Source: a virus | Length of the DNA: 30,057 bases | Virus record (IMG/VR): IMGVR_UViG_3300044619_001653 | Coordinates: 1-30,057 of that record | Strand: one strand, 5' to 3' | In this document: in pieces, positions 1 to 14,019 of the stretch | Layout: every line of letters begins with the position of its first letter | Position numbering within the stretch: position 1 is the first letter of the stretch | Translations under genes and position numbers: made by a program | Notes under the pieces: model-generated | Told to the model about the DNA's origin: nothing | The model's input: the letters and a program-made list of their open reading frames with translations, nothing else | The model's database searches: none

Positions 1-1135
1 ACTTCTGAACAATCTGCTTTACATAGGTACGTTCTGATTCGAGACCACCGTCGTTAGAGTAGTAAGGATAGATACAAACATCAGCGGCTTCTTGTAGTGT
101 GAACCCGTCACAGATGAGACCAGCGGCAGCAAGCAGTGTACGAGTAGAGATAGCCGTAGAGATACGTGAACCATCGAGTGCTTCAACCTGTGTGGCGTTA
201 TACACATCAGCGAGAATCTCCACCGTCTTTGCATCCATTGTAGGACAGGTCATCGAGACAAGCTCCATCTGTTGTTGCTTGTTGAGGATGTCCATCTCAA
301 GGATTTGGAAACGGTCAGCGATAGCACGGTCAATCTGACGTGTTGACGTGTACTCCATACCGATGTTCGCGGTAGCAATAAAAGAAACACCGTTGGCTAC
401 CTTGATAACAGGAGACGTTGGTGATTCGTCTACACGTACATACCGTTGTGATTCATCGAGAACAGTCATGAGGATGTTCCAAGCTTCAGGGTGAGCACGT
501 GACAACTCATCAAGAAGGATAACCGCGTTCTCTGTTTGAAGAGCCTTGATGAACGTAGAGTCAGCGAAGTAAGTACCGCTGTCCTTATTGAAGTGGGTGT
601 TACCAATCAGTGTAGAACGTGGGTCTTGTGTAGCACCGAGGTTGAAGTAGAAGAACGGACGTTCCATCGCATTAGCAACCGTGGTAACTGCGAGTGTCTT
701 ACCACAACCAGCAGGACCTGTAATCATAAGGTTCTTACCACGAACAACCGAACGTACAAGATACTTCCACTTCACGTCAGAGAGGATAAGAGTCTTTGGA
801 CGAATGTCAGGTGACGTGTGAATCATGTTCAGAACCGCTTGTTCGTTCTGTGGTGCAGTCAATGTAAACTCCTTCGTGGTAGATTGTGTTGTAGGTTGTG
901 TACGGAAGTTATCAGGGCAAACGTCGTTAGTGATACGAACGTTACCACCTGCAAACATCTTGAAACAAATATCATTGAAACTACCGTCACGATCTGTACC
1001 ATAGTTACGGATGAGACGGTCGATACCTGCCTTACCGTCGGTATAGTAGTTCTTCTCGTTACCGTCCATATCGCGCACTGTCCAGTAACCGTCAACAACC
1101 GAAGCCATGAGGTAGGTGAAAGATTGGTTAGCCAT
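1..1135 (-). CDS. MoxR/CobS-type AAA+ ATPase (C-terminus beyond window edge)
   Basis: About 378 codons are readable from the ATG at 1133-1135 to the left edge, with no stop. Residues 1-95 are an unrecognised N-terminal region. The AAA+ core follows: Walker A GPAGCGKT at residues 140-147, Walker B VILLDE ending at E210, a sensor-1-like FIATAN segment, and downstream arginines (RQIDRAIADRF) typical of MoxR/CbbQ/CobS ATPases. Such ATPases remodel targets together with a VWA-domain partner, and one is encoded at 9544-11679. The gene has its own promoter (1177-1207) whose spacer palindrome recurs only at the VWA gene, and an ACACAAGGA ribosome-binding leader. The family call is strong. The target is unknown; chaperone-like remodelling is inference from the family. 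Confidence 0.9.
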   Translation of the reverse strand, partial: MANQSFTYLMASVVDGYWTVRDMDGNEKNYYTDGKAGIDRLIRNYGTDRDGSFNDICFKMFAGGNVRITNDVCPDNFRTQPTTQSTTKEFTLTAPQNEQAVLNMIHTSPDIRPKTLILSDVKWKYLVRSVVRGKNLMITGPAGCGKTLAVTTVANAMERPFFYFNLGATQDPRSTLIGNTHFNKDSGTYFADSTFIKALQTENAVILLDELSRAHPEAWNILMTVLDESQRYVRVDESPTSPVIKVANGVSFIATANIGMEYTSTRQIDRAIADRFQILEMDILNKQQQMELVSMTCPTMDAKTVEILADVYNATQVEALDGSRISTAISTRTLLAAAGLICDGFTLQEAADVCIYPYYSNDGGLESERTYVKQIVQK

Positions 1136-1176: not shown

Positions 1177-1207
1177 CAAAACTACGGAATTTTTCCGTAA
1201 GAAACAA
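1177..1207 (-). promoter_or_regulatory. Bacteroidota-type promoter for the AAA+ ATPase, with spacer palindrome
   Basis: Read on the minus strand: TTG (1207-1205), a 20-nt spacer, then TAGTTTTG (1184-1177), which matches TAnnTTTG. The spacer contains TTACGGAAAAATTCCGTA, an inverted repeat with 7-8 nt arms. The same promoter with the same palindrome occurs at 9472-9502 upstream of the VWA gene. Transcription would start near 1170, about 35 nt before the ATG. Confidence 0.8.
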
Positions 1208-1212
1208 GCCCC

Positions 1213-1221
1213 TGTGGATAA
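1213..1221 (-). promoter_or_regulatory. DnaA-box-like site TTATCCACA
   Basis: An exact match to the E. coli DnaA box TTATCCACA on the minus strand, 5 nt upstream of the ATPase promoter's -33 element. The AAAAAGTTATCCACA context recurs at 8489-8502 and 9454-9467. The match is seen; DnaA binding is inference, and a phage regulator could equally use the site. Confidence 0.55.
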
Positions 1222-1226
1222 CTTTT

Positions 1227-1251
1227 TAAGTCCTTGATTTATAAGGACTTA
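1227..1251. repeat. TAAGTCCTT/AAGGACTTA inverted repeat
   Basis: TAAGTCCTT (1227-1235) and AAGGACTTA (1243-1251) are perfect 9-bp arms around a 7-nt loop. On the minus strand the repeat begins immediately after the TGA of the gene at 1252-1527 and precedes the ATPase promoter. No U-tract follows, so an operator or an RNA-processing hairpin is as likely as a terminator. Confidence 0.8.
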
Positions 1252-1527
1252 TCAGATACCCTGTGGAAACCATAGTGAATCTTCACTACCTACACGAGCA
1301 TAGAACTTACCACCAGAGAAGTTACATACCCATTGATACGTTCCTTCACCGATGTCTTCATGAGGAACAAGTCCATCATACATCTCATCGAGGAGGTCGA
1401 AGGCAATATCGTTTGAAAGTGCGATTGTGTCTGTGTCATTCATATATGACTGAATGTCACTGTATGCTTGGTTGGAGAGTGTGAGTTGTGCAATCATTGG
1501 TGCCTCTTCGCAAAAGGTGATTTTCAT
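1252..1527 (-). CDS. Hypothetical small phage protein, 91 aa
   Basis: I do not recognise this protein. It has a mixed acidic composition without signal peptide or membrane segment, and the C-terminal half is aromatic and glycine-rich (GTYQWVCNFSGGKFYARVG). The chosen ATG (1525-1527) shares its A with the upstream stop in a TAATG overlap, which indicates translational coupling. An internal ATG at 1497 is the alternative start. It is the last gene of a four-gene minus-strand unit that begins at the 2362-2393 promoter, and it ends on a TAAGTCC repeat. Confidence 0.7.
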   Translation of the reverse strand: MKITFCEEAPMIAQLTLSNQAYSDIQSYMNDTDTIALSNDIAFDLLDEMYDGLVPHEDIGEGTYQWVCNFSGGKFYARVGSEDSLWFPQGI

Positions 1528-1754
1528 TAGTTACCGAACGTCTTGATGTTGAACATATTGTGAATACGTGTTGATGCGTCAACGAAAGAGTAACCTGCGT
1601 GTTGAGCGAACTTCTGACAAGACTGTGCGAATCGTGTATAGTCGGAGTGGTCACGGTTCGTATAGAACGAACGAAGAGCGGAACCTGTTTCTTCTGCGAG
1701 TGCCCAATAGGTTTCGCCTGAGCACGGTGTAGGGAAAAGTGTGAGCTGTGACAT
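1527..1754 (-). CDS. Hypothetical small phage protein, 75 aa
   Basis: Unrecognised. The start MSQLTLFPTPC at 1752-1754 is preferred over a longer reading to 1814 because ACACAAGGG, the SD-like leader used throughout this region, lies just upstream, and because the longer version would overlap the preceding gene by about 55 nt. The middle carries an aromatic and charged segment (SFYTNRDHSDYTRFAQSC). No membrane segment is visible. It is coupled to the following gene by a TAATG overlap. Confidence 0.65.
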   Translation of the reverse strand: MSQLTLFPTPCSGETYWALAEETGSALRSFYTNRDHSDYTRFAQSCQKFAQHAGYSFVDASTRIHNMFNIKTFGN

Positions 1755-1758
1755 TAGA

Positions 1759-1980
1759 TTACCCTTGTGTGTTTGGAGTGTAATAAACTGTTCGTTCCAT
1801 GAGAAGAGTCTCATTCTGTTCGGGAGTCAATAAGCCCATGGCGAACTTCATCTCGTCCCATGATGATACAGATGTGACTGCTGTGTTTTCATACTTGTGA
1901 GCGAAATCAGATGCGTTCTCCCAATTGAACGTCATCATTGATACACGACCGTTGGTCGCGAGATAGAGTGAAGGAATCAT
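1759..1980 (-). CDS. Hypothetical small phage protein, 73 aa
   Basis: Unrecognised. The start MIPSLYLATNG at 1978-1980 overlaps the upstream stop as TAATG, with GGAG about 14 nt upstream. A TTG start at 1995 is possible but less likely. The sequence is soluble-looking, with a run of charged helix-forming residues (WDEMKFAMGLLTPEQNETLLME). It belongs to the four-gene minus-strand unit 1252-2327. Confidence 0.65.
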   Translation of the reverse strand: MIPSLYLATNGRVSMMTFNWENASDFAHKYENTAVTSVSSWDEMKFAMGLLTPEQNETLLMERTVYYTPNTQG

Positions 1981-2327
1981 TACTTGTTTCTCCAAATGTT
2001 TGACTTTGACTTGATAGATTCGACTGATGACGGGATAACACTTTCACCTGCGTTCATATGGAACGTCTCGTTGATTTGATTCAACATACGTTCACGTCCA
2101 AGATTCATACCAGCATCAAACCCATCTTTGTATTGAGCATCCGCCGTGTTATAACCAATACCTTGTAGAGTTGTTTCAAACGCAGTGAGAAGAGCATAGT
2201 CGGACATACTCTTGACTGACTTGTAATAACCGTGAACATCAATCTGACGGAGACGAGCTTCCAACTGCTCACGGAGCGAGAGGTCTTTCAACTCTCTATT
2301 GACGTGGGGATATTCGTGAAGTTCCAT
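1980..2327 (-). CDS. Hypothetical early phage protein, 115 aa
   Basis: First gene of the minus-strand unit, 35 nt downstream of the promoter at 2362-2393, with CACAAGGAC as ribosome-binding leader. The protein is largely helical and charged (LSLREQLEARLRQIDVHGYY), with a glycine-containing turn DGFDAGMNLGRERML. It has no signal peptide, membrane segment or recognisable catalytic motif. Position under a strong early-type promoter suggests a host-directed or regulatory role, but that is inference only. Confidence 0.7.
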   Translation of the reverse strand: MELHEYPHVNRELKDLSLREQLEARLRQIDVHGYYKSVKSMSDYALLTAFETTLQGIGYNTADAQYKDGFDAGMNLGRERMLNQINETFHMNAGESVIPSSVESIKSKSNIWRNK

Positions 2328-2361
2328 TAGGTTGTCCTTGTGGGTTGTTTTTTCTAATACA

Positions 2362-2393
2362 CAAACCTACGGAATATATTCGATATATCCAAA
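2362..2393 (-). promoter_or_regulatory. Bacteroidota-type promoter, minus-strand arm of divergent pair
   Basis: On the minus strand TTTG (2393-2390), a 20-nt spacer, then TAGGTTTG (2369-2362). The spacer starts GATATATC and ends ATTCCG, as in the promoter at 3410. It drives the unit 1252-2327. Two DnaA-like sites with one mismatch lie upstream (TTTTCCACA at 2399-2407 on plus, TTATCCCCA at 2412-2420 on minus). Confidence 0.8.
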
Positions 2394-2425
2394 TGTTTTT
2401 TTCCACACCAATGGGGATAACTTTG

Positions 2426-2530
2426 TAAGTCCTTATAAATCAATGGGTTAGAGAATAATTAATTTTTATTCATAATCTAAGTCCTTATAAATAAGGCACT
2501 TACGTTAACCCCAATGAAATCAAGGGGTTA
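2426..2530. repeat. Inverted-repeat cluster in the divergent intergenic region
   Basis: This stretch between the two divergent promoters holds a half-copy TAAGTCCTTAT (from 2426), an imperfect hairpin TAAGTCCTTAT/ATAAGGcACTTA (2478-2502, one bulged C), and a second stem TAACCCC (2506-2512) with GGGGTTA (2524-2530). No gene is visible here. The elements belong to the AAGTCC family found at 1227, 3363, 8387, 9429 and 13974. Confidence 0.65.
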
Positions 2531-2550
2531 CAATTATGAACAAAAATTCA

Positions 2551-2582
2551 TTTGGATATGTGGTGGAAGTTCCTTATGTTTG
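2551..2582 (+). promoter_or_regulatory. Bacteroidota-type promoter for the SprT-like gene
   Basis: TTTG (2551-2554), a 20-nt spacer, then TATGTTTG (2575-2582), a full TAnnTTTG match. It overlaps the 5' part of a longer possible reading frame from 2552, which shows that the true start of the downstream gene is the later ATG at 2615. Confidence 0.75.
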
Positions 2583-2614
2583 AGGATGTCTCAAATCATA
2601 CCCAAGAAAACCCA

Positions 2615-3100
2615 ATGATAAAAACTGCCCGTCTTAAACGTCATGACCGTTCGTGGTTCTACAAACCAGATAAGAACATTGCACTATACAACTTATCACG
2701 TCGGTCAATAACAGAAGAAGAACTGAATGAGTTCTTTGACTATGCACTACAATGGTGCCAAAAGAAGTTCGGTAAGGTAAAGGGAAAGGAACTGCCCCAC
2801 ATCGAATGGGAGTGGAACGAACCGTGGTATCAAAAAAAGAAATTGCTAGCACTATATGATAAGGAAGACAACGTTGTTTCTATCAGGATACAAGGACACC
2901 GTACTATATACAACCTTGCTAATACGGTTATACATGAGTACATACACTACCTACAACCAACACACGCTAACTGGTATGAGAGGTATGACAAGATGTATGG
3001 GTATCAAAACAACCCATATGAGATAGAGGCATACCACTTAGGAGACCTATACTCCGTAGAGTGCGCCAAGATAGTAGTGGGGTGGATGGGTAGGAGGTAA
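2615..3100 (+). CDS. SprT-like zinc metallopeptidase, 161 aa
   Basis: The protein contains HEYIH at residues 107-111, preceded by the hydrophobic helix YNLANTVI. A downstream NPYEIEAYHLG segment (133 onward) can supply the third zinc ligand. This is the layout of SprT/Wss1-like minigluzincins, which in cells cleave proteins bound to DNA. Start: a frame open from 2552 exists, but 2551-2582 is the promoter, so the ATG at 2615 (MIKTARLKRHD) is chosen. It stands alone between a divergent promoter region and a gene-free repeat tract. The substrate is unknown. A phage role in clearing DNA-bound host proteins or protein-DNA crosslinks is inference. Confidence 0.8.
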   Translation: MIKTARLKRHDRSWFYKPDKNIALYNLSRRSITEEELNEFFDYALQWCQKKFGKVKGKELPHIEWEWNEPWYQKKKLLALYDKEDNVVSIRIQGHRTIYNLANTVIHEYIHYLQPTHANWYERYDKMYGYQNNPYEIEAYHLGDLYSVECAKIVVGWMGRR

Positions 3101-3110
3101 CGAAATAACA

Positions 3111-3300
3111 CCCCCATATGAGGAGGGTATATACACCCTATATACCCCATAGGTATATACGCCATATACCCCTTATATAACCCCCTTTTAACCCCTATAA
3201 TACCCTATATACCCCCAAATATAGGGTATATAAGATACCCCAAAATAGGGGGTATAGGGGGGTATAATTACCCGTAAACCCCTATGGGGGAGGGGGGTTC
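3111..3300. repeat. Gene-free C-rich/G-rich TATACCCC repeat tract
   Basis: There is no reading frame worth reporting. The first half of the tract is dominated by CCCC/TATACCCC units and the second half by GGGG/GGGTATA units, so the region folds on itself. Clear stems are TACCCTATAT (3201-3210) with ATATAGGGTA (3219-3228), and ATACCCC (3235-3241) with GGGGTAT (3249-3255). Function is unknown; an origin, a packaging or pausing site, or a structured RNA are all possible. Confidence 0.6.
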
Positions 3301-3362
3301 GGTAAATGCGATTTAGGTGTTTTTCTATCGGGGTCAATTTTTTCATATAGGAAAATTTGTCC

Positions 3363-3389
3363 TTAAATCCTTACGGTGTAAGGACTTAA
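3363..3389. repeat. AAGTCC-family inverted repeat
   Basis: TTAAATCCTTA (3363-3373) and TAAGGACTTAA (3379-3389) form 11-bp arms with one non-Watson-Crick pair around CGGTG. A DnaA-like site with one mismatch (TTTTCCACA, minus strand, 3395-3403) sits between this repeat and the promoter at 3410, the same order as in the other cassettes. Confidence 0.7.
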
Positions 3390-3409
3390 CCTAATGTGGA
3401 AAACTTTTA

Positions 3410-3441
3410 TTTGGATATATCCCCAAAATTCCGTATCATTG
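3410..3441 (+). promoter_or_regulatory. Bacteroidota-type promoter for the 3.47-7.5 kb gene chain
   Basis: TTTG (3410-3413), a 20-nt spacer starting GATATATC and ending ATTCCG, then TATCATTG (3434-3441), one base off TAnnTTTG. The first gene starts 30 nt downstream at 3471 with an AGGAGA ribosome-binding site. It is the only promoter I see for the whole overlapping chain. Confidence 0.75.
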
Positions 3442-3470
3442 TAATTCATTTCATTCACTCAGGAGACATT

Positions 3471-3668
3471 ATGTCTAACATCAAGTTCATCATCTATCAA
3501 TCATTTCGTGACAATCCCGAAGTGTTGGTAACTACGCCAGAGTTAGAACAAGAGTTCATCGAAGAATGGTTCGGTGACGGTAACGAACGGTATCTTCCAG
3601 ACTACGACCGTACAGAACACAATGAGACAGGTATTCTTATTCGTAACGAAGGTCTGAGGGTACTGTGA
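3471..3668 (+). CDS. Hypothetical small phage protein, 65 aa
   Basis: Unrecognised acidic protein (MSNIKFIIYQSFRDNPEVLV...). The frame is open from 3396, but that part is promoter; the ATG at 3471 follows AGGAGACATT at proper spacing. It ends in a TGATG overlap with the next gene. First gene of the long early chain. Confidence 0.65.
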   Translation: MSNIKFIIYQSFRDNPEVLVTTPELEQEFIEEWFGDGNERYLPDYDRTEHNETGILIRNEGLRVL

Positions 3669-4000
3669 TGGTAGATTGGTCAAAAGAACGATTGGAAGAC
3701 ATGAGGAGGTTTGACGACCTTCGAGGTCTTCCAAAAGATGTGCTAACAAAGGATGTTGTCATCTCTATATGTGAAGACATTATCGACCACTTTAACATAC
3801 CAAAGGTAAGAGACTTTTACTTTTGGAAAGAAAAGGACGGTAAGAATGAATCCTACTACATCACATTCGGTTGGTACAATCTAATCGGTTCTCTACTCTA
3901 CCAAACAGGTGTCCAACACAACGGTACACTTTCACACTATCATCCTGACGCTTGGTCAATAATTCAATCAAAACTCCCACAACTTTCAGAAACAACATGA
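3668..4000 (+). CDS. Hypothetical phage protein, 110 aa
   Basis: Unrecognised. It begins MVDWSKERLEDM at the ATG sharing its A with the previous stop. A charged helical N-terminus is followed by an aromatic-rich stretch (DFYFWKEKDGKNESYYITFGWYN). No signal peptide or membrane helix is visible. It overlaps the HAD-like gene by ATGA, so the two are probably co-translated. Confidence 0.65.
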   Translation: MVDWSKERLEDMRRFDDLRGLPKDVLTKDVVISICEDIIDHFNIPKVRDFYFWKEKDGKNESYYITFGWYNLIGSLLYQTGVQHNGTLSHYHPDAWSIIQSKLPQLSETT

Positions 4001-4290
4001 TAATCTACGTTGACATAGACGAGACGATATGTCACTACGAGGGTAAACGGGAGTACCCACTCGCCGTTCCTTTAAAGGACAATATCGCCAAGATAAACAA
4101 GTTATACGATGAAGGACATCACATCACGTACTACACTGCTCGTGGTGCCATCAGTAAGAAAGACTGGTATGACCTTACAGAGACCCAACTAAACGAATGG
4201 GGATGTAAGTATCATCATCTCAGTGTTGGTAACAAACCACACTACGACCTACTAATCTGTGACAAAACAAAACGTATTGAGGAAATATGA
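3997..4290 (+). CDS. HAD-superfamily phosphatase-like protein, 97 aa
   Basis: MIIYVDIDETICHYEG places HAD motif I (DxDxT) at residues 6-10, and YYTARG about 40 residues later fits motif II (T/S). The C-terminal DLLICDKTK lies where the motif IV acidic residues of small HAD proteins occur, although one acidic position appears to be Cys. There is no cap domain. Similar minimal HAD proteins are common in large phages and are often annotated as nucleotidases or polynucleotide 3'-phosphatases. The substrate cannot be read from sequence. The start is the ATG in an ATGA overlap with the previous gene; earlier in-frame starts lie inside that gene. Confidence 0.75.
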   Translation: MIIYVDIDETICHYEGKREYPLAVPLKDNIAKINKLYDEGHHITYYTARGAISKKDWYDLTETQLNEWGCKYHHLSVGNKPHYDLLICDKTKRIEEI

Positions 4291-4616
4291 ACAACAACAT
4301 TGAAAAAGTAATTCGTGACGGTAAGGTTGCCGTACTCGTATCTCGTGGGTACGGTGCTGGTTGGTCAACGTGGACAGACGAAGTAGAGACGTATCTATTC
4401 CATCCAAAGTTGGTTCAAATGGTGGAAGAAGAACGCCACAGTGAAATAACAACAGAGTGGATGGAACAAGAACTCGGTCTCGATGTTTCCTACACAGGTG
4501 GTACAGACGGTCTTGAAATTCAATGGGTTCCAGTTGGAACACAGTTCGTTATCCACGAATATGACGGTCACGAATCACTCAGAACTATTGACGACTTTTA
4601 TTGGATGACTGCCTAA
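4287..4616 (+). CDS. Conserved-looking hypothetical phage protein, 109 aa
   Basis: Unrecognised function. It starts by ATGA overlap with the HAD-like gene. Notable is the early segment VAVLVSRGYGAGWSTW (residues 13-28), a glycine-rich turn of the kind seen in small conserved phage proteins, followed by an acidic helix region and a C-terminal beta-rich part (FVIHEYDGHESLRTID). It is soluble, and ends in a TAATG overlap with the next gene. Confidence 0.65.
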   Translation: MNNNIEKVIRDGKVAVLVSRGYGAGWSTWTDEVETYLFHPKLVQMVEEERHSEITTEWMEQELGLDVSYTGGTDGLEIQWVPVGTQFVIHEYDGHESLRTIDDFYWMTA

Positions 4617-4945
4617 TGAAAAACAACATGAACACAGAATGGATAACAGACCGACTGCCAACGGCAGAGGATGCACTCACAGATGGTAGCGTTTGGACAT
4701 TTTACGATGGCAAGGTTATGATGTGGTCATACGACGGCGTTCAACTCGGTACACCATGGCAACGAATCCCAACTCCCGAACCTTACGTCAAACCTAAACG
4801 GTGGACGGTGGAGTTCAGCGCCTATGACAACACATGGATTATGCGTGACAACGTTGAAGGTTGGGTACGTCTATTGTACATTGATAGATGTCACAGGGAT
4901 GCCGCTCAACAAATCGAAGACATTTACAACAAGGTGAATCCGTGA
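4616..4945 (+). CDS. Hypothetical phage protein, WITDR/PW-type, paralogue of 6116-6421
   Basis: Starts at the ATG in a TAATG overlap (MKNNMNTEWITDRLPTAED). Shared with the gene at 6116-6421 are WITDR-x-PT-x-x-D at the N-terminus, a central G-x-PW with a proline-rich P-x-P stretch, and P-x-RW. These match in order and spacing, so the two are probable paralogues. WITDR..P proteins with an early W and a central PW resemble a group of small phage proteins of unknown function. No membrane segment is present. Confidence 0.7.
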   Translation: MKNNMNTEWITDRLPTAEDALTDGSVWTFYDGKVMMWSYDGVQLGTPWQRIPTPEPYVKPKRWTVEFSAYDNTWIMRDNVEGWVRLLYIDRCHRDAAQQIEDIYNKVNP

Positions 4946-5148
4946 AAACACCCCTATCGGAACGAATCAGACCTAATTCAGAAGCCGCCCCGTGGGTGAT
5001 TGACGAAGTAAAGAAGTTAGAGAAACAAAACAAGATAATGTTGGACGCCATCAAGGAGGCAGTGAGTTATCCCGATGACTACTATTGGCGTATTATCAAC
5101 GAACTATTAGAAAAAACACTACAAGACGTAGAAGGAGAAAATCAATGA
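4942..5148 (+). CDS. Hypothetical coiled-coil protein, 68 aa, GTG start
   Basis: The GTG at 4942 overlaps the preceding TGA (GTGA). The protein reads (V/M)KTPLSERIRPNSEAAPWVIDEVKKLEKQNKIM. A heptad-like helix (EVKKLEKQNKIMLDAIKEAV) suggests a short coiled coil. An upstream ATG at 4888 would overlap the previous gene by 58 nt and is less likely. Function unknown. Confidence 0.6.
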   Translation: MKTPLSERIRPNSEAAPWVIDEVKKLEKQNKIMLDAIKEAVSYPDDYYWRIINELLEKTLQDVEGENQ

Positions 5149-5312
5149 CAAGGAAAACCCAACGAATCGTATATGGACTCTTCGTCCTCGGAATATGTAT
5201 TGCCTTCTCTGCCGCGATGGCAATCGGTACGGGTATGTTCGGACAATGTAACAATCAACAGGAATCGGAATGCCGGTGTTCCTGTAATCAAAATGAAACC
5301 CGGAATAAATAA
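5145..5312 (+). CDS. Small membrane protein with Cys-rich tail, 55 aa
   Basis: Starts by ATGA overlap at 5145. A basic N-terminus (MTRKTQR) precedes one hydrophobic helix (about residues 8-30), followed by a short hydrophilic tail with four cysteines (CNNQQESECRCSC). The arrangement suggests an inner-membrane protein with its tail outside the cytoplasm. Function unknown. Confidence 0.6.
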   Translation: MTRKTQRIVYGLFVLGICIAFSAAMAIGTGMFGQCNNQQESECRCSCNQNETRNK

Positions 5313-5719
5313 TGTTCTACAAAAAGAATATCAAACCCATGAATGAATCAAGGGGAACCCATGTTCCACACTCAATCATTCAACCTCCACCTAAACCCTA
5401 TCATCGAGAACATAAACCTGAAAAAGAAATGACAACCTACAATCTACTCATCCTCGATAAGGCGATTCAACATCACTATGAATCAGAGGAGGTTATCTGT
5501 CCTTCTCAAGAAGAAGTAGAGGATGCACTCGCAGATATTTCGTTAGAGATTCAAAGATTGAAGGAGGAGAAGGCAGAACTTATGGTAACTCTGAATGGGA
5601 TTCAAAACGTCCTAAAGGGAAATCCCGTAGTGACTGAATTTGACATGGTAGAGATGATTCACAAGATACAATCAATAACATTCATTGGACTAAACAAAGT
5701 AAAAGGAGAAAAGGAATGA
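5312..5719 (+). CDS. Hypothetical phage protein with coiled coil, 135 aa
   Basis: The ATG shares its A with the upstream TAA. The first ~40 residues are polar and proline-rich (SIIQPPPKPYHREHKP). A helical segment follows with a strong coiled-coil character (about residues 75-100, SLEIQRLKEEKAELMVTL). A second possible start, MTTYNLLILD, lies at 5429. No family recognised. Confidence 0.6.
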   Translation: MFYKKNIKPMNESRGTHVPHSIIQPPPKPYHREHKPEKEMTTYNLLILDKAIQHHYESEEVICPSQEEVEDALADISLEIQRLKEEKAELMVTLNGIQNVLKGNPVVTEFDMVEMIHKIQSITFIGLNKVKGEKE

Positions 5720-5988
5720 GTGGTGGACGTTTCGGATATTCGCAACATAGGTTGACCGAGATGGTCGAAGAGATAGAAACGGTCATTCAAAACAATGGTG
5801 TAAAAGACCAATGGGGTTATGCCGATAACTTCTCGGAGGAAACCATTGGAGAGTTTCGTAATGGAATTGCCGCACTAAAACGTGCTTATGTTTACGCACA
5901 ACGTATTGATTGGTTAGTTTCTTCTGATGACTCTGAAGAGGGCTTCCATGAAAGATTGAAACACGATTTGAAGGGATTAGAAGAATGA
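5716..5988 (+). CDS. Conserved small phage protein, MSGGRFGY-type, 90 aa
   Basis: The opening MSGGRFGYSQHRLTEMVEEIE resembles small phage proteins that start with S-G-G-x-F-x-Y followed by a charged helix; their function is unknown. The remainder is helical, with FSEETIGEFRNGIAALKRAYVYAQRIDWL in the middle. It starts by ATGA overlap and ends by ATGA overlap with a very small membrane protein. Confidence 0.7.
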   Translation: MSGGRFGYSQHRLTEMVEEIETVIQNNGVKDQWGYADNFSEETIGEFRNGIAALKRAYVYAQRIDWLVSSDDSEEGFHERLKHDLKGLEE

Positions 5989-6131
5989 TTGAAATAGTTA
6001 TGTTTTTTTCGGGATGGTGGTACTTCTCGAAGTTACGTCAACGAATAGAGTTACTTGAGATGCAAGTAATGTTATTGTCTACACCGAAGAATGAACAGGA
6101 AAAGGAGAGTGAAGAATGGTCAATTGGATAA
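5985..6131 (+). CDS. Micro membrane protein, 48 aa
   Basis: A short frame starting by ATGA overlap at 5985, reading MIEIVMFFSGWWYFSKLRQR then IELLEMQVMLL. One hydrophobic helix (residues 2-14) is followed by a basic and amphipathic helix. It ends 16 nt inside the next gene. Support comes from the coupling pattern shared with its neighbours and the membrane-helix signature, not from homology. Confidence 0.5.
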   Translation: MIEIVMFFSGWWYFSKLRQRIELLEMQVMLLSTPKNEQEKESEEWSIG

Positions 6132-6421
6132 CGGATAGAGAACCGACAATAAAGGACGGCGACCCATTGGGTAATGTTCTGACGGTCTCACCGATTGGGG
6201 AAGTTATCACCGAGAGGTTCAATGTAGTGGTGAAGGGTATGCCGTGGATGCCGACACCTGTACCACCTAAACGACCCTCGACTCGGTGGCACTTGGGTTC
6301 ACAACCAAACTTTCTGACTGATGGGGAGTTTACCGTTATTGTATCAGGTGGTGAAAACAAACGTGAACGTGATAAGGTTGTAACTGTTATATTAGAAACG
6401 TTAAATATGGAGTTACCGTAA
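6116..6421 (+). CDS. Hypothetical phage protein, WITDR/PW-type, paralogue of 4616-4945
   Basis: MVNWITDREPTIKDGDPLGN aligns with the N-terminus of 4616-4945. The central GMPWMPTPVPPKRPSTRW aligns with that gene's GTPWQRIPTPEPYVKPKRW. The C-terminal third has diverged. No membrane helix or catalytic motif is visible. The start is the ATG at 6116 after GAGTGAAGA, and the gene ends in a TAATG overlap with a micro membrane gene. Confidence 0.7.
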   Translation: MVNWITDREPTIKDGDPLGNVLTVSPIGEVITERFNVVVKGMPWMPTPVPPKRPSTRWHLGSQPNFLTDGEFTVIVSGGENKRERDKVVTVILETLNMELP

Positions 6422-6546
6422 TGGGTATCTTTAAAGTAATAATGACCGCGATTGTTCTTCTTTCTATCCTCGGAGGAACACTCATGATAACTCGATGGGG
6501 ATTGGAAAAGTTTATAAACTTCTTCTTACAACGAAAGGTAAAGTGA
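6421..6546 (+). CDS. Micro membrane protein, 41 aa
   Basis: MGIFKVIMTAIVLLSILGG is a single membrane helix, followed by a basic amphipathic tail ending in FFLQRKVK. It is coupled on both sides: TAATG at the start and TGATG with the exonuclease-like gene. No family recognised. It is supported by the tight coupling and the helix. Confidence 0.5.
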   Translation: MGIFKVIMTAIVLLSILGGTLMITRWGLEKFINFFLQRKVK

Positions 6547-7349
6547 TGATTTCAAAAGATAAAATAATGAATACACTCTTCTACGATATTGAAACCACGA
6601 CTCGGTATAAGACGTATGAAGAATACAAAGAAGCAGAACCGTTCATGGCAGATGACTTTGAATACCGTGTTCAATTGAAGTGGAAGAAAAACGAATTGTT
6701 GGATAAGACGTACTCTGAAATTTACCACGACGAGGCGATGATTTATCCCGAACACGGACAGGTCATCGCAATCTCTTGGAAGATTTGGGATGGTAAGTCA
6801 TTCAGTGGAGATACGATTGGATTTAAGGATTGGGATGACTATGCCACCCGTGGTAACACCCATGCCGATAAGGACATCTTGATTGAGTTCAATAAGGTCA
6901 TGGAAACTATCTTTGGTGATGAGAATGGTTCTCTCGGTGGGTATCGTATCAAGTATTTTGATAACCCGTTTCTTTACAAGCGAATGTTGATTAACGGAAT
7001 TTATCCACACAAGTCACTTATCTCCGTTGGTAAGAAACCGTGGGACATTCCACACCTCGACTTGTATGATTGGTGGAACGGTGTTGGTGTAAATGGTATG
7101 GCTGGGTTTGGAGCTGCGTGTGAAGTTATGGGTGTAAAGAATCCAAAGGAAGAAGAAATCAGTGGTCGCCAAGTTTGTTATCGTTTTTGGGATGACCACA
7201 ATATCCAGATGATTAACGAATACTGTATGAGAGACGTTGATTCTTCTATTGATTTTGCAATTAACTTGTCTCACGATAAGTTGACATCAAAGTATAATAA
7301 AACTCTCCAAGAATGGAACGAAAGAAAGGAAAACGAAAATGGTATTTGA
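6546..7349 (+). CDS. DEDDy-type 3'-5' exonuclease, 267 aa
   Basis: The three exonuclease motifs are in order. Exo I is FYDIET (D14, E16), Exo II is in RIKYFDNPFL (D139), and Exo III is YCMRD with Y226 and D230, the Y-x3-D form that defines the DEDDy class (DnaQ-like/PolB proofreading). The protein is a stand-alone exonuclease domain with no polymerase or helicase part. Such proteins degrade or proofread single-stranded DNA 3' ends. The start at 6546 is a TGATG overlap; an internal ATG at 6567 directly before FYDIET is the alternative. It sits in a chain of unknown small genes, so its pathway is not indicated by context. Expected partners would be phage replication or recombination proteins. 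Confidence 0.82.
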   Translation: MISKDKIMNTLFYDIETTTRYKTYEEYKEAEPFMADDFEYRVQLKWKKNELLDKTYSEIYHDEAMIYPEHGQVIAISWKIWDGKSFSGDTIGFKDWDDYATRGNTHADKDILIEFNKVMETIFGDENGSLGGYRIKYFDNPFLYKRMLINGIYPHKSLISVGKKPWDIPHLDLYDWWNGVGVNGMAGFGAACEVMGVKNPKEEEISGRQVCYRFWDDHNIQMINEYCMRDVDSSIDFAINLSHDKLTSKYNKTLQEWNERKENENGI

Positions 7350-7524
7350 TGTTATTACATCCCTCGCACTTATTAGTTCTATCATCATTATTTGGGTTCA
7401 ACGTAAAACAATTATGAATTTAGAACAAGAGATATGGCAGTTAGAACAAGATTATAAGAGGGACACTGGAAAGGTGTATCAGTGGAAAGGTCGTGTCTTT
7501 GACCTATGGAATGTAAATCAATAA
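7339..7524 (+). CDS. Small membrane-anchored coiled-coil protein, 61 aa
   Basis: A hydrophobic N-terminal helix (about residues 3-19, DVITSLALISSIIIIWV) is followed by a charged heptad-like helix (MNLEQEIWQLEQDYKRD). It overlaps the exonuclease gene by 11 nt. It is probably an inner-membrane protein with a cytoplasmic or periplasmic coil; function is not recognised. Confidence 0.6.
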   Translation: MVFDVITSLALISSIIIIWVQRKTIMNLEQEIWQLEQDYKRDTGKVYQWKGRVFDLWNVNQ

Positions 7525-7539
7525 CAGAAAGAAATAATC

Positions 7540-7776
7540 ATGACACTTCGAGAGATGTTGATTCAATCAATCGTAGAATTTGAGATGGTTAGTAGGGAAG
7601 ACGTAATACCTGTCAATTACTTTGAAAAGATGAATGACTCTGAACTTATGAGAATATATCGTAATATCGTTTGGGACGAGGCATACACCGATGGACACGT
7701 TGAAGGATATTTCAAAGGTGTAGATTATGAACGGGAACAATCAAGAAAGATAGACCCACGAGCAATATTAAACTAA
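7540..7776 (+). CDS. Hypothetical phage protein, 78 aa
   Basis: Soluble, acidic and helical (MTLREMLIQSIVEFEMVSRE...), with a C-terminal GHVEGYFKGVDYEREQSRK segment. No motif recognised. It lies 15 nt after the previous gene and 16 nt before the secreted-protein gene, so it is likely in the same transcript. Confidence 0.6.
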   Translation: MTLREMLIQSIVEFEMVSREDVIPVNYFEKMNDSELMRIYRNIVWDEAYTDGHVEGYFKGVDYEREQSRKIDPRAILN

Positions 7777-7792
7777 TATAAAGGAAGATAAC

Positions 7793-8389
7793 ATGAAAAA
7801 GATTTTACTTACCGCACTTACTTTGATTGTGAGTGTCTCTTCAGGAATGGCTCAAAAACCTGGCGATTACATTAAGGAAAGAATCCGAAACAACTTTCCA
7901 ATTTTTTCGTTCACACCTTGTACTCCGTTTCTTTTGGAGTTCGGTTCGAGTGCAGATGCTGTGATTAGAAAGGCATCCGAGATTGGTATCAAGTACCATA
8001 GTAAACTCAAACTCCCAACACCGGAAGGTGGTTACATTTTGGCGTTCTATGATTTGGATAACCTTCGTTCAGTACAAGGGTTTCCTATGACAGAAACAAT
8101 TGTGTATATGATGTCTTTTACAAAGAAGGATGAATATTTTTCTTTCTCTATGAGAATAAATTGCGCCAACATTTATTACTCAAAATCATTTTATGATATG
8201 TTAGTCGAACAAACTAACAAGACATATGGTTACACAAAATCAACATCAGGAGCAACAATGTCCTTATGTGAAGATAGAGAAAGTTTGATGTTTGGTAAAA
8301 AGTTATCTGTAACAACATCACTTGACGGTTCAAGTACAACACTAACAATCATTGACCTATCTATTCTTGAATCTGCCTTGACGAAGTAA
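7793..8389 (+). CDS. Secreted (periplasmic) protein of unknown function, 198 aa
   Basis: A classical Sec signal peptide opens the protein: MKK, a hydrophobic core ILLTALTLIVSV, then SSGMAQ with cleavage expected after Ala-Gln or Ala, a form usual in Bacteroidota exports. The mature part is beta-rich and contains CTPF near residue 42 and further cysteines (CANIYY, LCEDRE). No family recognised. AAGGAAGATAAC lies upstream of the ATG. Its TAA stop is the first part of an AAGTCC repeat, so the transcript probably ends here. Export by a lytic phage suggests action on the host envelope, for instance blocking superinfection, but this is inference. Confidence 0.7.
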   Translation: MKKILLTALTLIVSVSSGMAQKPGDYIKERIRNNFPIFSFTPCTPFLLEFGSSADAVIRKASEIGIKYHSKLKLPTPEGGYILAFYDLDNLRSVQGFPMTETIVYMMSFTKKDEYFSFSMRINCANIYYSKSFYDMLVEQTNKTYGYTKSTSGATMSLCEDRESLMFGKKLSVTTSLDGSSTTLTIIDLSILESALTK

Positions 8390-8488
8390 GTCCTTTATTT
8401 TATTGGACTTACCGTGGACTAAGTTTAACCCCTTGAAATATAAGGACTTACGATTTATCCCCGTAAGTCCTTTATTTGTATAGACTTA
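8387..8488. repeat. AAGTCC-family repeat cluster
   Basis: Three successive elements are seen: TAAGTCC (8387-8393) with GGACTTA (8405-8411); the strong stem AAGGACTTACG (8442-8452) with CGTAAGTCCTT (8462-8472); and a degenerate copy ending TAGACTTA near 8488. The first element begins on the stop codon of the upstream gene. The middle stem is repeated almost exactly at 13975-14003. There is no gene in 8390-8584. Confidence 0.75.
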
Positions 8489-8493
8489 AAAAG

Positions 8494-8502
8494 TTATCCA
8501 CA
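8494..8502 (+). promoter_or_regulatory. DnaA-box-like site TTATCCACA
   Basis: Exact TTATCCACA within AAAAAGTTATCCACACC, 13 nt upstream of the promoter at 8516. The extended context is shared with 9454-9469 and, on the other strand, with 1213-1226. Confidence 0.55.
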
Positions 8503-8515
8503 CCCACATTTTTTA

Positions 8516-8547
8516 TTTGGATATATCATATATGTTCCCTAATTTTG
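8516..8547 (+). promoter_or_regulatory. Bacteroidota-type promoter
   Basis: TTTG (8516-8519), a 20-nt spacer starting GATATATC, then TAATTTTG (8540-8547), a perfect TAnnTTTG. It drives 8585-9431. The reading frame open from 8552 starts at the expected transcription start, so the gene start must be the ATG at 8585. Confidence 0.82.
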
Positions 8548-8584
8548 TGTATTGAAATTCTTCACACACATCGGGACAACCCCT

Positions 8585-8866
8585 ATGAAAAACACCAAGT
8601 TTTCTTCGTTTTACCTTCACACAAACGAAAAGCAAATTGGCGACCGTAAGCGCGATACTGTAACAACGTATCACATGATTCTCCGTCCTACGTCGGTAAT
8701 CAACGAAGAACAACGTCGGTTCTTGTGTGAATACAATCGTATGACAAAGATTGCAACATTCCGCAATGAGAAGGGTCAAATTGTTGAAGTTCAAAAGATG
8801 GGTAACAAGGTCGTTGTAGATTTTGTCTATGCCATGGCACAACAAGTATTTCAAACTGCTCAGTAA
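8585..8866 (+). CDS. Hypothetical early phage protein, 93 aa
   Basis: Starts MKNTKFSSFYLHTNEKQIG, 38 nt after the promoter, with a CACATCGGGACAACC leader. It is a basic N-terminal half with a beta-like C-terminal half (KIATFRNEKGQIVEVQKMGNK). Function unknown. First gene of a three-gene early unit with the four-Cys protein and a conserved small protein. Confidence 0.65.
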   Translation: MKNTKFSSFYLHTNEKQIGDRKRDTVTTYHMILRPTSVINEEQRRFLCEYNRMTKIATFRNEKGQIVEVQKMGNKVVVDFVYAMAQQVFQTAQ

Positions 8867-8889
8867 TTTTCACACACAAGGATAATAAA

Positions 8890-9216
8890 ATGCCACGAGG
8901 ACGTAAACCCAAGAAGACTTCCAAGAAGTCTAATGTTATCGAATCGGTAATCAAGCGAGGAAAAATTTACTGTATCAACAGTAAGAAGAACAAAACACCG
9001 TATTGGGGTGGTGAGACGTGTGATACTTACATCGACCACGACGGTGAAATTGTTCGGTTTGTTTGTTCAACGTGTGTTGCAAAATTGGTTCCAGTCGAAC
9101 GTAAAGGCCCGAAAGTTGACCCTGTAACTGGTGAAAAACGAAAGCGTGGTCGTCCGAAGGGAAGTACGAATAAACCAAAAACAATTACAACAAACACAAA
9201 AAAAGGTAAGAAGTAA
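8890..9216 (+). CDS. Four-cysteine protein with AT-hook-like tails, 108 aa
   Basis: The N-terminus carries PRGRKPK and the C-terminal region KRGRPKGS; both are AT-hook-like RGR/GRP cores, which bind AT-rich minor groove. Between them lie CINSKKNK, then G-x-x-C-DTYIDHDG, then FVCSTCVAKLVPVE, a possible zinc-binding four-Cys module. The gene at 22475-22867 carries the same Cys spacing and the ending C-x-x-C-x-A-x-x-VP-x-E, so they look paralogous. A DNA-binding role is likely but not proven. The leader is CACACAAGGATAATAAA. Confidence 0.65.
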   Translation: MPRGRKPKKTSKKSNVIESVIKRGKIYCINSKKNKTPYWGGETCDTYIDHDGEIVRFVCSTCVAKLVPVERKGPKVDPVTGEKRKRGRPKGSTNKPKTITTNTKKGKK

Positions 9217-9431
9217 TGGAAACGATTCAAAAGTACGAGATGGACATCTACACAGCCGTTGGTCTTGCGGAAGGTTTTGAACAACCTGAATCAGAGGAAC
9301 AAGTTATTGCCGCATGGCAATATCTCGTTGACACAGGGGTTGTTTGGCAACTTCAAGGACGGTTTGGACGTACTGCACATGACCTGATTCAAAACGGGAT
9401 TATCAACCCTCCATCGAGAGGATATAACTAA
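9216..9431 (+). CDS. Conserved small phage protein, WxLQGxFGRTAxxLI-type, 71 aa
   Basis: The C-terminal half WQLQGRFGRTAHDLIQNGII, preceded by WQYLVDTGV, matches the pattern of a small protein found in many unrelated phages (VxTGxxWxLQGxYGRxAxxLIxxG). The function of that group is unknown to me. It starts by TAATG overlap with the AT-hook-like gene. Its own TAA is the first triplet of a TAAGTCCTT repeat. Confidence 0.75.
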   Translation: METIQKYEMDIYTAVGLAEGFEQPESEEQVIAAWQYLVDTGVVWQLQGRFGRTAHDLIQNGIINPPSRGYN

Positions 9432-9453
9432 GTCCTTTATTTTCAAGGACTTA
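9429..9453. repeat. TAAGTCCTT/AAGGACTTA inverted repeat on a stop codon
   Basis: Perfect 9-bp arms, TAAGTCCTT (9429-9437) and AAGGACTTA (9445-9453). The first three bases are the stop codon of the upstream gene. The repeat is followed at once by AAAAAGTTATCCACA and the VWA promoter. Confidence 0.8.
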
Positions 9454-9458
9454 AAAAG

Positions 9459-9467
9459 TTATCCACA
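9459..9467 (+). promoter_or_regulatory. DnaA-box-like site TTATCCACA
   Basis: Exact TTATCCACA, 4 nt upstream of the -33 element of the VWA promoter. The same AAAAAGTTATCCACA block is found in front of the ATPase promoter on the other strand (1213-1227). Confidence 0.55.
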
Positions 9468-9471
9468 CCCC

Positions 9472-9502
9472 TTGTTTCTTACGGAAAAATTCCGTAGTTT
9501 TG
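9472..9502 (+). promoter_or_regulatory. Bacteroidota-type promoter for the VWA gene, with spacer palindrome
   Basis: TTG (9472-9474), a 20-nt spacer, then TAGTTTTG (9495-9502). The spacer contains TTACGGAAAAATTCCGTA, identical to that of the ATPase promoter at 1177-1207, and the flanks (TTGTTTC on the left, GTTTTGTA on the right) are also identical. A regulator dimer bound there would block both promoters. Confidence 0.82.
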
Positions 9503-9543: not shown

Positions 9544-11679
9544 ATGTCAACAGCAAAACGTTCACCGTGGTTTCTTTCCAACGAGAAGAAGTCTCGGTCT
9601 AACTTTTGGAAGTCTCGTAATTCGGGATATTCTTCTTCAAACTATTGGTTGAAGGATTCTATCTTCGAGAAGAAGCAATCATACTTCTTTGACGAAGATG
9701 ATACGGTAGAGAAGGCATCAAAGTATGACCATATGCAACTCGCACAATACCAGCGTGCGATTGCGAACTTCGTTCGTATTCTCACAGGCCGTGGTGACAT
9801 CCAAGTGAAGTACAACAACGGTGGTAATTCATATACAGACGGTAAGACAATTACTCTTTCACCGAACATCAAGGAGAAGGAGTTTGATACTGCGGTAGGT
9901 CTTGCTCTTCATGAAGCATCACACATTCTGTATACAGACTTTGACAAAACGAATCAGTATATCGAAGATACTGTTAGAAATACAGGTTCACGTTATTCTG
10001 ATGAAGTAGACCAACGTAAGATTCTCCTCAACCTTGTGGAAGACCTTTACATTGATGCGATGACGTATCGTTCTGCCCCTGGGTATCGTGGTTATTATTC
10101 ATCACTATACCAAAAGTATTTCGGTGATAAGAAGATTGTAGAAGGTCTGTGGTCAAAGGATTATGCGGAACCAACGTGGAACAACTACCTGTTCCACCTT
10201 ATCAACATCCGTAATCCACAACGTAATCTCCAAGCTCTTCCTGGTCTTGAGAAGATGTTCAAGATGTTGGACTTGCCAAACGTTCTTCGTATGTCCACAT
10301 TTGAAGACCGCATCTACTTGTCCAAGTATCTGTTTGATACTATCTCGAAGTATGTAGACGCGACGAAGGAGTATCAACAACAGTTACAGTCACAGATGGG
10401 TAACGGTGACGGTAGTTCTGAAGAACAGATGACACAATCTCTGAATGACCTACTTGAACAGATGGCTGACCAAGAGTCTGGTGATGAACAAGAAGGTAAC
10501 GGTGGTAGTGGTGACGGTAAGTTTACCGCGTCCAATGGTGTCAACATCGGTGAAGAAATGGACGGCACAAATGCACTTGACCTCGATAAGTTATCAGACA
10601 AGGCAAAGGCACAATTGCAGAAGTTAATTGACCAACAACGTGAGTTCATCAAGGGTCAACCACGTAAGGGTAAGTTGTCCAAGGCAGACCAACAGAAGGT
10701 TGATGCTTGGGCTGAAGTTGATATGGAAAAGAAGACCGTCGGTGCTAACTCTGAGTTCAGTAAGAAGGGTCTTCCACTTTACATCATCAATGATGTTACT
10801 AACTCGTTCATTGAGAATCTCGGTAACGCTTATGGTCTTCGTAGTTATGTTGGCACATACAGTCAGAACCGTATCAACGATGCCATCAACCGTGGTAAGA
10901 TTCTTGCTAAGAATCTTCAACTTCGTAACGAAGAACGTTCACTAAAGACATCACGTCTTGATAGTGGTAAGATTGACAAGCGTCTTCTTCACGAGATTGG
11001 TTTCGATAACTTTGACATCTTCCAAAAGGTGAACATCAACGCTTACAAGCCATCGTACATTCACATCTCCATTGACCAATCAGGTTCAATGCAGGGGTCG
11101 AAGTTTGATGCGGCTATGGAGTTCGCTGCTATGTTCGCTACGGCATCAAAATATATCAAGAACATCCATCTTGTTATCTCACTACGTTCTACGTTCGATG
11201 GTTCGGGTAAGTCTAATGGTTGGTCTCGGTACTCTACACAGAATACTCCATACCTCATGTATATCTTTGATTCAAAGAAGCACAACATCCAACACGTTCG
11301 TTCACTCTTCCCGAAGGTTACTGCAAACAACCTGACACCAGAAGGATTGTGTTTCGACGGTATCATGAAAGATACTATTCAGAAGTCTGCCAATACAGAA
11401 GCTTACTTCATCAACATCTGTGACGGTGAACCGTACATGAATTACAGTTCAGGTAATGGTTCTTTTGAGTATGGTGGGCCAAAGGCACAAGCTCACTCAC
11501 GTAAGCAGATGCAACGTATGGAACAGAACGGTGTGAAGTTCATCACGTACTTTATCGGTAGTCGTTATGACTTTGAAGCGGTAGAGAAGTGTTATGGCAA
11601 GAACGCAGTCCTTCTGCAACGTGCAGATGAGATTGGTGTAATTACAAAGACAATGAACAAGCGATTGCTTGCCGCCTAA
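9544..11679 (+). CDS. Metallopeptidase-like + VWA domain protein, partner of the MoxR ATPase, 711 aa
   Basis: The N-terminal part has an HExxH motif, LHEASHILYTDF (H123-H127), as in the predicted metallopeptidase domains that precede VWA domains in MoxR-linked proteins (DUF2201/CobT-like). An acidic, Gln/Gly/Ser-rich linker lies around residues 280-345. The C-terminal VWA domain shows the full MIDAS set: DQSGS (D511-S515), T598 in LTPEG and D627 in ICDGEP. Known pairs of MoxR-type ATPases with VWA proteins (CobS/CobT, RavA/ViaA) act as metal-insertion or protein-remodelling machines. Here both genes share the same promoter sequence although about 8 kb apart and on opposite strands. The frame is open from 9472, but that is promoter; the ATG at 9544 follows ACAGGAGTAAT. 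Confidence 0.88.
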   Translation: MSTAKRSPWFLSNEKKSRSNFWKSRNSGYSSSNYWLKDSIFEKKQSYFFDEDDTVEKASKYDHMQLAQYQRAIANFVRILTGRGDIQVKYNNGGNSYTDGKTITLSPNIKEKEFDTAVGLALHEASHILYTDFDKTNQYIEDTVRNTGSRYSDEVDQRKILLNLVEDLYIDAMTYRSAPGYRGYYSSLYQKYFGDKKIVEGLWSKDYAEPTWNNYLFHLINIRNPQRNLQALPGLEKMFKMLDLPNVLRMSTFEDRIYLSKYLFDTISKYVDATKEYQQQLQSQMGNGDGSSEEQMTQSLNDLLEQMADQESGDEQEGNGGSGDGKFTASNGVNIGEEMDGTNALDLDKLSDKAKAQLQKLIDQQREFIKGQPRKGKLSKADQQKVDAWAEVDMEKKTVGANSEFSKKGLPLYIINDVTNSFIENLGNAYGLRSYVGTYSQNRINDAINRGKILAKNLQLRNEERSLKTSRLDSGKIDKRLLHEIGFDNFDIFQKVNINAYKPSYIHISIDQSGSMQGSKFDAAMEFAAMFATASKYIKNIHLVISLRSTFDGSGKSNGWSRYSTQNTPYLMYIFDSKKHNIQHVRSLFPKVTANNLTPEGLCFDGIMKDTIQKSANTEAYFINICDGEPYMNYSSGNGSFEYGGPKAQAHSRKQMQRMEQNGVKFITYFIGSRYDFEAVEKCYGKNAVLLQRADEIGVITKTMNKRLLAA

Positions 11680-13959: not shown

Positions 13960-14019
13960 AAGTAGTTGATTTATAAGGACTTACGGTGATTTCGTAAGTC
14001 CTTTATTTTTAAGGACTTA
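13960..14019. repeat. AAGTCC-family repeat cluster, rightmost copy
   Basis: The strong stem AAGGACTTACG (13975-13985) with CGTAAGTCCTT (13993-14003) is nearly identical to the stem at 8442-8472. It overlaps a second inverted repeat TAAGTCCTT (13995-14003) with AAGGACTTA (14011-14019), so the middle arm can pair either way. A half copy lies at 13960. No promoter of the usual type follows, and no further copies were seen to the right. No gene lies between 13948 and 14134. Confidence 0.75.

Follow-up and report, generated by a model that had tools for sequence, protein, structure and literature searches.

Matched promoters with an operator-like inverted repeat ahead of separated ATPase and VWA genes in a T4-like phage fragment

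Twin promoters ahead of the ATPase and VWA genes

The IMG/VR virus record IMGVR_UViG_3300044619_001653 consists of a single 30-kb stretch of 30,057 bases, which is called the window below. It is a fragment of a T4-like phage, encoding a gp25-like baseplate wedge protein, a ClpP-type head protease, ThyX and UvdE. The promoters found in it follow the Bacteroidota pattern (TTTG, 20 bases, TAnnTTTG), so that the host of the phage is probably a member of the Bacteroidota. The genes that interest us code for a MoxR-type ATPase and a VWA protein, which lie 8.4 kb apart on opposite strands and are preceded by one and the same promoter. Genes were called with a simple open reading frame picker and promoters were scanned with the pattern TTTG/CTTG-N20-TAnnNTTG. 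The two genes and their promoters are arranged as follows:

1..1135, minus strand: MoxR-type AAA+ ATPase gene of the NorQ/CbbQ kind, truncated by the end of the window
9544..11679, plus strand: gene of the VWA partner, NorD-like
1177..1207, minus strand: ATPase promoter core (TTG, 20 bases, TAGTTTTG), -7 at 1184-1177, spacing as in the other promoters of the virus
9472..9502, plus strand: VWA promoter core of identical sequence, -7 at 9495-9502, recognized by sequence and spacing
1183..1199, minus strand: 17-bp inverted repeat TACGGAA-AAA-TTCCGTA, operator-like, right arm on the -7, matching the TacA1 operator consensus
9480..9496, plus strand: second exact copy of the inverted repeat

The 33-base promoter TTGTTTC-TTACGGAAAAATTCCGTA-GTTTTGTA is identical ahead of both genes. 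The 18-mer TTACGGAAAAATTCCGTA occurs in two exact copies, at 1183-1200 (minus) and 9479-9496 (plus), and no third site was found in the window with up to three mismatches (0.04 expected); TACGGAANNNTTCCGTANNTTTG matches only at 1177-1199 (minus) and 9480-9502 (plus). An exact palindromic promoter shared by the two genes had been proposed in a first-pass annotation of the window, and these counts confirm it. The same annotation had placed the palindrome between the -33 and -7 elements; it is indeed present at both promoters, but the true inverted repeat is 17 bp long and overlaps the -7, whose TA is supplied by the right arm. The upstream regions of the ATPase and VWA genes are the top-scoring pair among all upstream pairs of the window (score 52; next 32). 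Apart from the flanks TTGTTTC and GTTTTGTA, both copies share the upstream AAAAAGTTATCCACA box and the stems of the hairpins at 1227-1251 and 9429-9453, and they differ in the loops of these hairpins, in the four bases that follow the box (GGGG/CCCC) and in the 5' untranslated regions. A bidirectional promoter was considered and rejected, as the phage site has no -7 on the opposite strand.

The ATPase matches PF07728 (AAA_5; 8.7e-19, 68 bits) and CbbQ_C (PF08406, the CbbQ/NirQ/NorQ C-terminal domain; 2.7e-6, 28 bits with a cut-off of 20.6) in Pfam as well as phrog_249 (3.4e-29), and its nearest solved AAA relative by profile is Midasin. The VWA protein carries the MIDAS residues D511, S513, S515, T598 and D627 and an HExxH motif, all invariant in 32 relatives. 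The comparison of this protein with PDB sequences gave weak spurious matches only. The fold search with its AlphaFold model (pLDDT 73.6) returned the NorD VWA in complex with NorQ as the top match (E 8.3e-9) and the Rea1 MIDAS domain as the second. Large phages commonly carry MoxR/VWA pairs.

The scan of IMG/VR with both proteins led to 72 analysable non-redundant clusters (<80% VWA identity), including the window. The ATPase and VWA genes are on one strand in all of the 71 other clusters, which makes the window the only opposite-strand case, and they are separated by less than 700 bp in 55 of these 71, with both gene orders represented (27:28); distances beyond about 10 kb are not visible in most loci. 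The earlier view of the two genes as halves of one machine is borne out by this constant same-strand neighbourhood, together with the NorQ/CbbQ domain of the ATPase and the NorD-VWA/Rea1-MIDAS fold of its partner.

Matched promoters across the family

The 160 bases upstream of every gene were compared within each locus for the 56 clusters with noncoding DNA ahead of both genes, using statistics that take no account of the tree apart from the clustering at 80%. ATPase and VWA form the rank-1 upstream pair in 18 of the 56 clusters (1.6 expected) and are among the top 5% of upstream pairs in 30; the combined Fisher p of 5e-25 is only indicative because pairs within a locus are not independent. 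The top-5% rate is 59.6% for ATPase-VWA versus 3.7% for neighbouring gene pairs and 2.2% for distant ones, part of the excess being due to the fact that the two genes have promoters of one class. In a stricter test limited to loci where three or more other genes bear a promoter (n = 29), the ATPase has VWA as its best partner in 11 loci (4.7 expected, P about 0.003) and, in reverse, the ATPase is the best partner of VWA in 10 (P about 0.011): the excess of matched promoters persists, in a weaker form.

The promoters of the two genes are more similar within a genome (median 26) than those of the same gene between genomes (median 10), and the window promoters, with their score of 52 against each other, reach at most 11.5 against any other cluster. 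Thus, the pair keeps matched promoters while their sequence turns over: they recur in the family, with a sequence specific to each lineage. When whole contigs are considered, ATPase-VWA is the first pair in 6 of 10 relatives. In the longer relatives, one to three extra genes, mutually non-homologous, share the promoter of the pair, so the co-regulated set may exceed two genes and an exclusive two-gene regulon is unsupported as a family rule. The coregulation initially suggested for the window hence gains from the recurrence of matched promoters, which argues for it, with the reservation that other genes may share the promoter in relatives. A palindrome was likewise rejected as a family rule (mean percentile 0.54 among 42 clusters): strong palindromes were seen in the window and in three other loci (L053, L018 and L050), and most clusters are without one.

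The VWA promoter of the Microcystis phage Mel-JY01 (PP395634.1, positions 30930-30965) also appears to be of the Bacteroidota type (TATGTTTG). Since the recorded host of this phage is a cyanobacterium, such a promoter suggests that its true host may be an associated bacterium.

Likeness of the inverted repeat to TacA operators

Apart from the window, TACGGAANNNTTCCGTANNTTTG was found in only two contigs of IMG/VR, at neither ATPase nor VWA genes. The search of 84,980 bacterial and archaeal genomes gave 46 stretches, 36 of them in Bacteroidota, and 14 of the 46 sites lie 25-90 bp upstream of a small TacA1 protein (PF08681, a ribbon-helix-helix antitoxin) that precedes a GNAT acetyltransferase toxin. 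These linked sites come from Mucilaginibacter, Sphingobacterium, Prolixibacteraceae and Flavobacteriales, and also from Photobacterium. The 17-mer is present exactly once per genome in nine genomes selected for having the site at TacA. In 101 Mucilaginibacter genomes there are seven exact sites, five of them at TacA, with about two chance sites estimated in some 540 Mb; the phage 17-mer is identical to the reverse complement of the Mucilaginibacter tacA operators. From the TacA1 genes outward, 32 of 41 Bacteroidia upstream regions carry the site (p<=0.01) with the consensus GTACGGANNNNNTCCGTAC-ATTTG, and the right arm usually falls on the -7, in the same register as in the phage.

The phage sites have both the TACGGA-N5-TCCGTA repeat and its overlap with the -7 of a TAnnTTTG promoter. 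The autoregulatory layout is absent, as they precede the ATPase and VWA genes with no tacA-tacT operon downstream. The dimeric regulator that had been postulated from the palindrome is plausible, and the operator likeness points to the TacA1 ribbon-helix-helix antitoxins as a candidate family. In the literature on phage operators read by antitoxins, or on TacA operator sequences, nothing direct was found.

The same promoter-embedded repeat was observed in another viral contig (L005, 6586-6608, minus strand), flanked by a set of rightward genes and a divergent gene of 224 amino acids. By eye, the N-terminus of the encoded protein was judged regulator-like; Pfam gave only a weak coiled-coil match.

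Cassette parts and ordinary promoters of the window

The window has eight clear promoters and further weaker ones, and the inverted repeat is found at the ATPase and VWA promoters only. The first-pass annotation had counted eleven promoters; its statement that just these two bear the palindrome stands. TTCCGTA by itself also precedes the -7 at 2369 (minus) and 3434 (plus). Ordinary promoters read TTTGGATATATC...TTCC(G)TAnnTTTG. TTCCGTA thus serves widely in this virus as an extended -7, and what distinguishes the pair is the left half of the repeat. The other features relevant to the cassette are:

2362..2393, minus strand: ordinary promoter TTTGGATATATC...TTCCGTAGGTTTG, right arm present, left arm absent
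3410..3441, plus strand: ordinary promoter TTTGGATATATC...TTCCGTATCATTG, right arm only
8516..8547, plus strand: ordinary promoter TTTGGATATATC with the same hairpin and box cassette, without the palindrome
1213..1227, minus strand: AAAAAGTTATCCACA box, containing the DnaA-box-like TTATCCACA; also ahead of the 8516 promoter
9453..9467, plus strand: AAAAAGTTATCCACA box
1227..1251, no strand assigned: hairpin TAAGTCCTT..AAGGACTTA upstream of the ATPase promoter (fold z -3.15)
9429..9453, no strand assigned: hairpin TAAGTCCTT..AAGGACTTA upstream of the VWA promoter (fold z -3.64)

TTATCCACA is found upstream of the non-palindromic promoter at 8516 too (box 8494), with variants upstream of others, and TAAGTCCTT has 13 exact occurrences in the window, as hairpin arms. 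The hairpin and the box are general cassette parts and not specific to the pair. Accordingly, the flanks and upstream parts previously described as common to the twin promoters are identical at both, but TTATCCACA and TAAGTCCTT do not set them apart. A T run is absent at the hairpins at 1227 and 9429 and present at the hairpin at 13975.

Several other observations concern these elements. The DnaA-box-like TTATCCACA occurs in an A-rich context upstream of promoters at 1213-1227, 2412-2424, 3395-3407, 8488-8502 and 9453-9467, in either orientation and at varying distances from the promoter, and a similar element is present at promoters of two distant relatives, G003 and G017 (TGTGGATAAATTTAACG). 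Three arms alternate at 8442-8495 and at 13975-14019 (AAGGACTTA / TAAGTCCTT / (A)GGACTTA); they could fold into one or the other of two exclusive hairpins, one of them with a T run after it, in an attenuator-like manner. The long noncoding region 3100-3300 is made up of near-repeats of TATACCCC, retained in the sister virus (L170:11690-11850).

Proposed regulation and alternative explanations

We consider it slightly better than an even bet (probability about 0.52) that the matched cassette promoters co-express the separated ATPase and VWA genes and that the repeat within them is an operator for a ribbon-helix-helix repressor of the TacA1 type. According to this scenario, the two genes would have been separated and moved onto opposite strands, and one promoter cassette would have been copied, leaving each gene with the same promoter; the matched promoters would then keep both genes expressed together after their separation. 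A dimeric repressor of the TacA1 type would bind the repeat on the -7 and block RNA polymerase at both promoters, and its release would switch both on. Judging from the sequence of the sites, binding and repression by a TacA-type protein is the most likely role of the repeat. Given that no TacA1 was found in the window, a host antitoxin or an unseen phage gene is needed, and the repressor would accordingly come from the host or from the unseen part of the phage genome. The recent appearance of an operator in the lineage of the window fits the promoter turnover of the family. The duplication of the whole cassette, already evoked in the first-pass annotation, is plausible, as the hairpin stems, the box and the promoter match between the copies.

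A number of observations weigh against the TacA-type operator. The sister virus (contig L008/G001) stops just short of the ATPase gene, which limits the reading to its VWA promoter: this promoter (TTTGGTTGGTAAC...) has the hairpin and the box (AAAAAGTTTTCCACA) without the palindrome. The palindrome of the window is present in no relative searched, and palindromes are not enriched in the promoters shared by the pair in relatives (42 clusters). As a conserved feature of the pair, the palindrome is thus unsupported. The extended -7 of ordinary promoters goes some way towards explaining the right arm of the repeat, and the outermost G..C of the TacA consensus (GTACGGA..TCCGTAC) is replaced by T..G in the phage. 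Moreover, some Bacteroidales promoters (those of EtfB, GuaB, SerB/CNNM and an omega-like gene) bear the repeat without TacA, so the repeat is not exclusive to TacA. Neither TacA1 nor a similar protein was found in the window with a small profile, and PF08681 had no match in 17 of 18 relative virus records; a phage-encoded TacA was hence rejected for the sequences searched, bar one partial match. Finally, the analysis covers 30 kb of the phage genome. No contig was found that extends the window to the left. The same virus is represented in a second metagenome by contig L003 (IMGVR_UViG_3300042905_003151; 99.6% identical), which overlaps the window from 11280 and extends about 3.3 kb beyond its right end; as this contig begins within the VWA gene, it does not cover the VWA promoter.

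The partial match is a 360-amino-acid membrane protein (L307:1330-2409, minus strand, record G129) that aligns with positions 43-79 of PF08681 (23.6 bits): it has the toxin-binding end of TacA1 but not the DNA-binding part, and may be a mimic able to neutralise a GNAT toxin. Its counterpart in the window appears to be the protein encoded at 21368-22456, which has no PF08681 match.

Several other scenarios may explain the twin promoters. One possible, if doubtful, explanation is that a mobile hairpin-box-promoter cassette was recently copied without any dedicated regulator, the palindrome being a chance feature. The hairpin stems, the box and the promoter match where the loops and the leaders do not, other promoters of the window contain parts of the cassette, an ordinary extended -7 accounts for half of the palindrome, and the lack of palindrome enrichment in relatives points the same way. 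Yet, matched promoters for ATPase and VWA recur in many lineages, which makes chance copying alone a poor account, and the match to the TacA operators in both sequence and register would have to be a coincidence. Alternatively, the pair could belong to a temporal promoter class (e.g. middle genes) with more members beyond the window, read by a phage transcription factor instead of a TacA-type repressor. The further genes that share the promoter of the pair in longer relatives would be congruent with this, as would the fact that the ordinary promoters of the window form a separate class (TTTGGATATATC). Nevertheless, the 30 kb contain no further member, ATPase and VWA remain the preferred match when set against other genes with a promoter, and the palindrome matches a known operator type, so that we regard a temporal class as unlikely.

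Two further explanations seem much less probable. The phage operators could be decoys that titrate the host TacA-TacT and upset the module, the control of the two genes being secondary. The sites are identical to host-type operators and the phage copy number would outnumber a single host site, but the precise position of two sites in the promoters of partner genes fits regulation better than titration, and we deem a decoy very improbable. That the inverted repeat and the GTTTTG after it make an RNA hairpin or a weak terminator, and not a protein site, is hardly credible to us: a pattern scan does list the repeat as terminator-like, yet its position on the -7 places it ahead of the expected transcription start, and its T run is made up of just four bases which are part of the -7.

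To return to the TacA-type operator, a bolder version of it is that a lytic phage has placed both halves of a seemingly essential MoxR/VWA machine under a copied host toxin-antitoxin operator, with the state of the host antitoxin or module as the switch signal. We hold this to be rather unlikely; if the host TacA does read the operator, the phage would be using a host toxin-antitoxin module as a signal. Regardless of the regulator, promoters that stay matched while their sequence turns over by lineage point to a need for balanced expression of the ATPase and VWA genes, and co-regulated partners in phages can be sought by promoter matching.

Comparison with known systems

The operators of TacA1 (DUF1778) in the GNAT modules of Bacteroidota resemble the phage repeat in their TACGGA-N5-TCCGTA sequence and in their register, the TA of TAnnTTTG being supplied by the right arm. 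Contrary to them, the phage repeat lacks the outermost G..C and is found at two distant sites, ahead of ATPase and VWA genes, with no adjoining antitoxin or toxin gene.

The promoter early stem-loop (PeSL) cassettes of T4-type phages are described as mobile and regulatory in PMC4503421 (citing Arbiol 2010 and Comeau 2014). As presented there, they are akin to the window cassette in being a unit of stem-loop and promoter repeated in the intergenic spaces of a T4-like phage, and by analogy the twin promoters probably arose by cassette copying in a PeSL-like manner. Set against that description, the window differs in its promoter of the Bacteroidota type (TTTG/TAnnTTTG), the added putative operator and the copies that serve one functional pair; terminator activity of the window hairpins is not evident either, as no T run follows the stem.

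The NorQ-NorD, CbbQ-CbbO, RavA-ViaA and CobS-CobT pairs share with the phage proteins the association of an AAA_5/MoxR ATPase, with a CbbQ/NorQ C-terminal domain, and a MIDAS-bearing VWA partner. The two subunits are likewise linked in Bacillus phage 0305phi8-36 (PMC2147016). Unlike the NorQ-NorD-type partners, the phage VWA protein also carries the HExxH motif, and whereas the genes of these pairs are normally adjacent, those of the window are far apart on opposite strands, with duplicated promoters.

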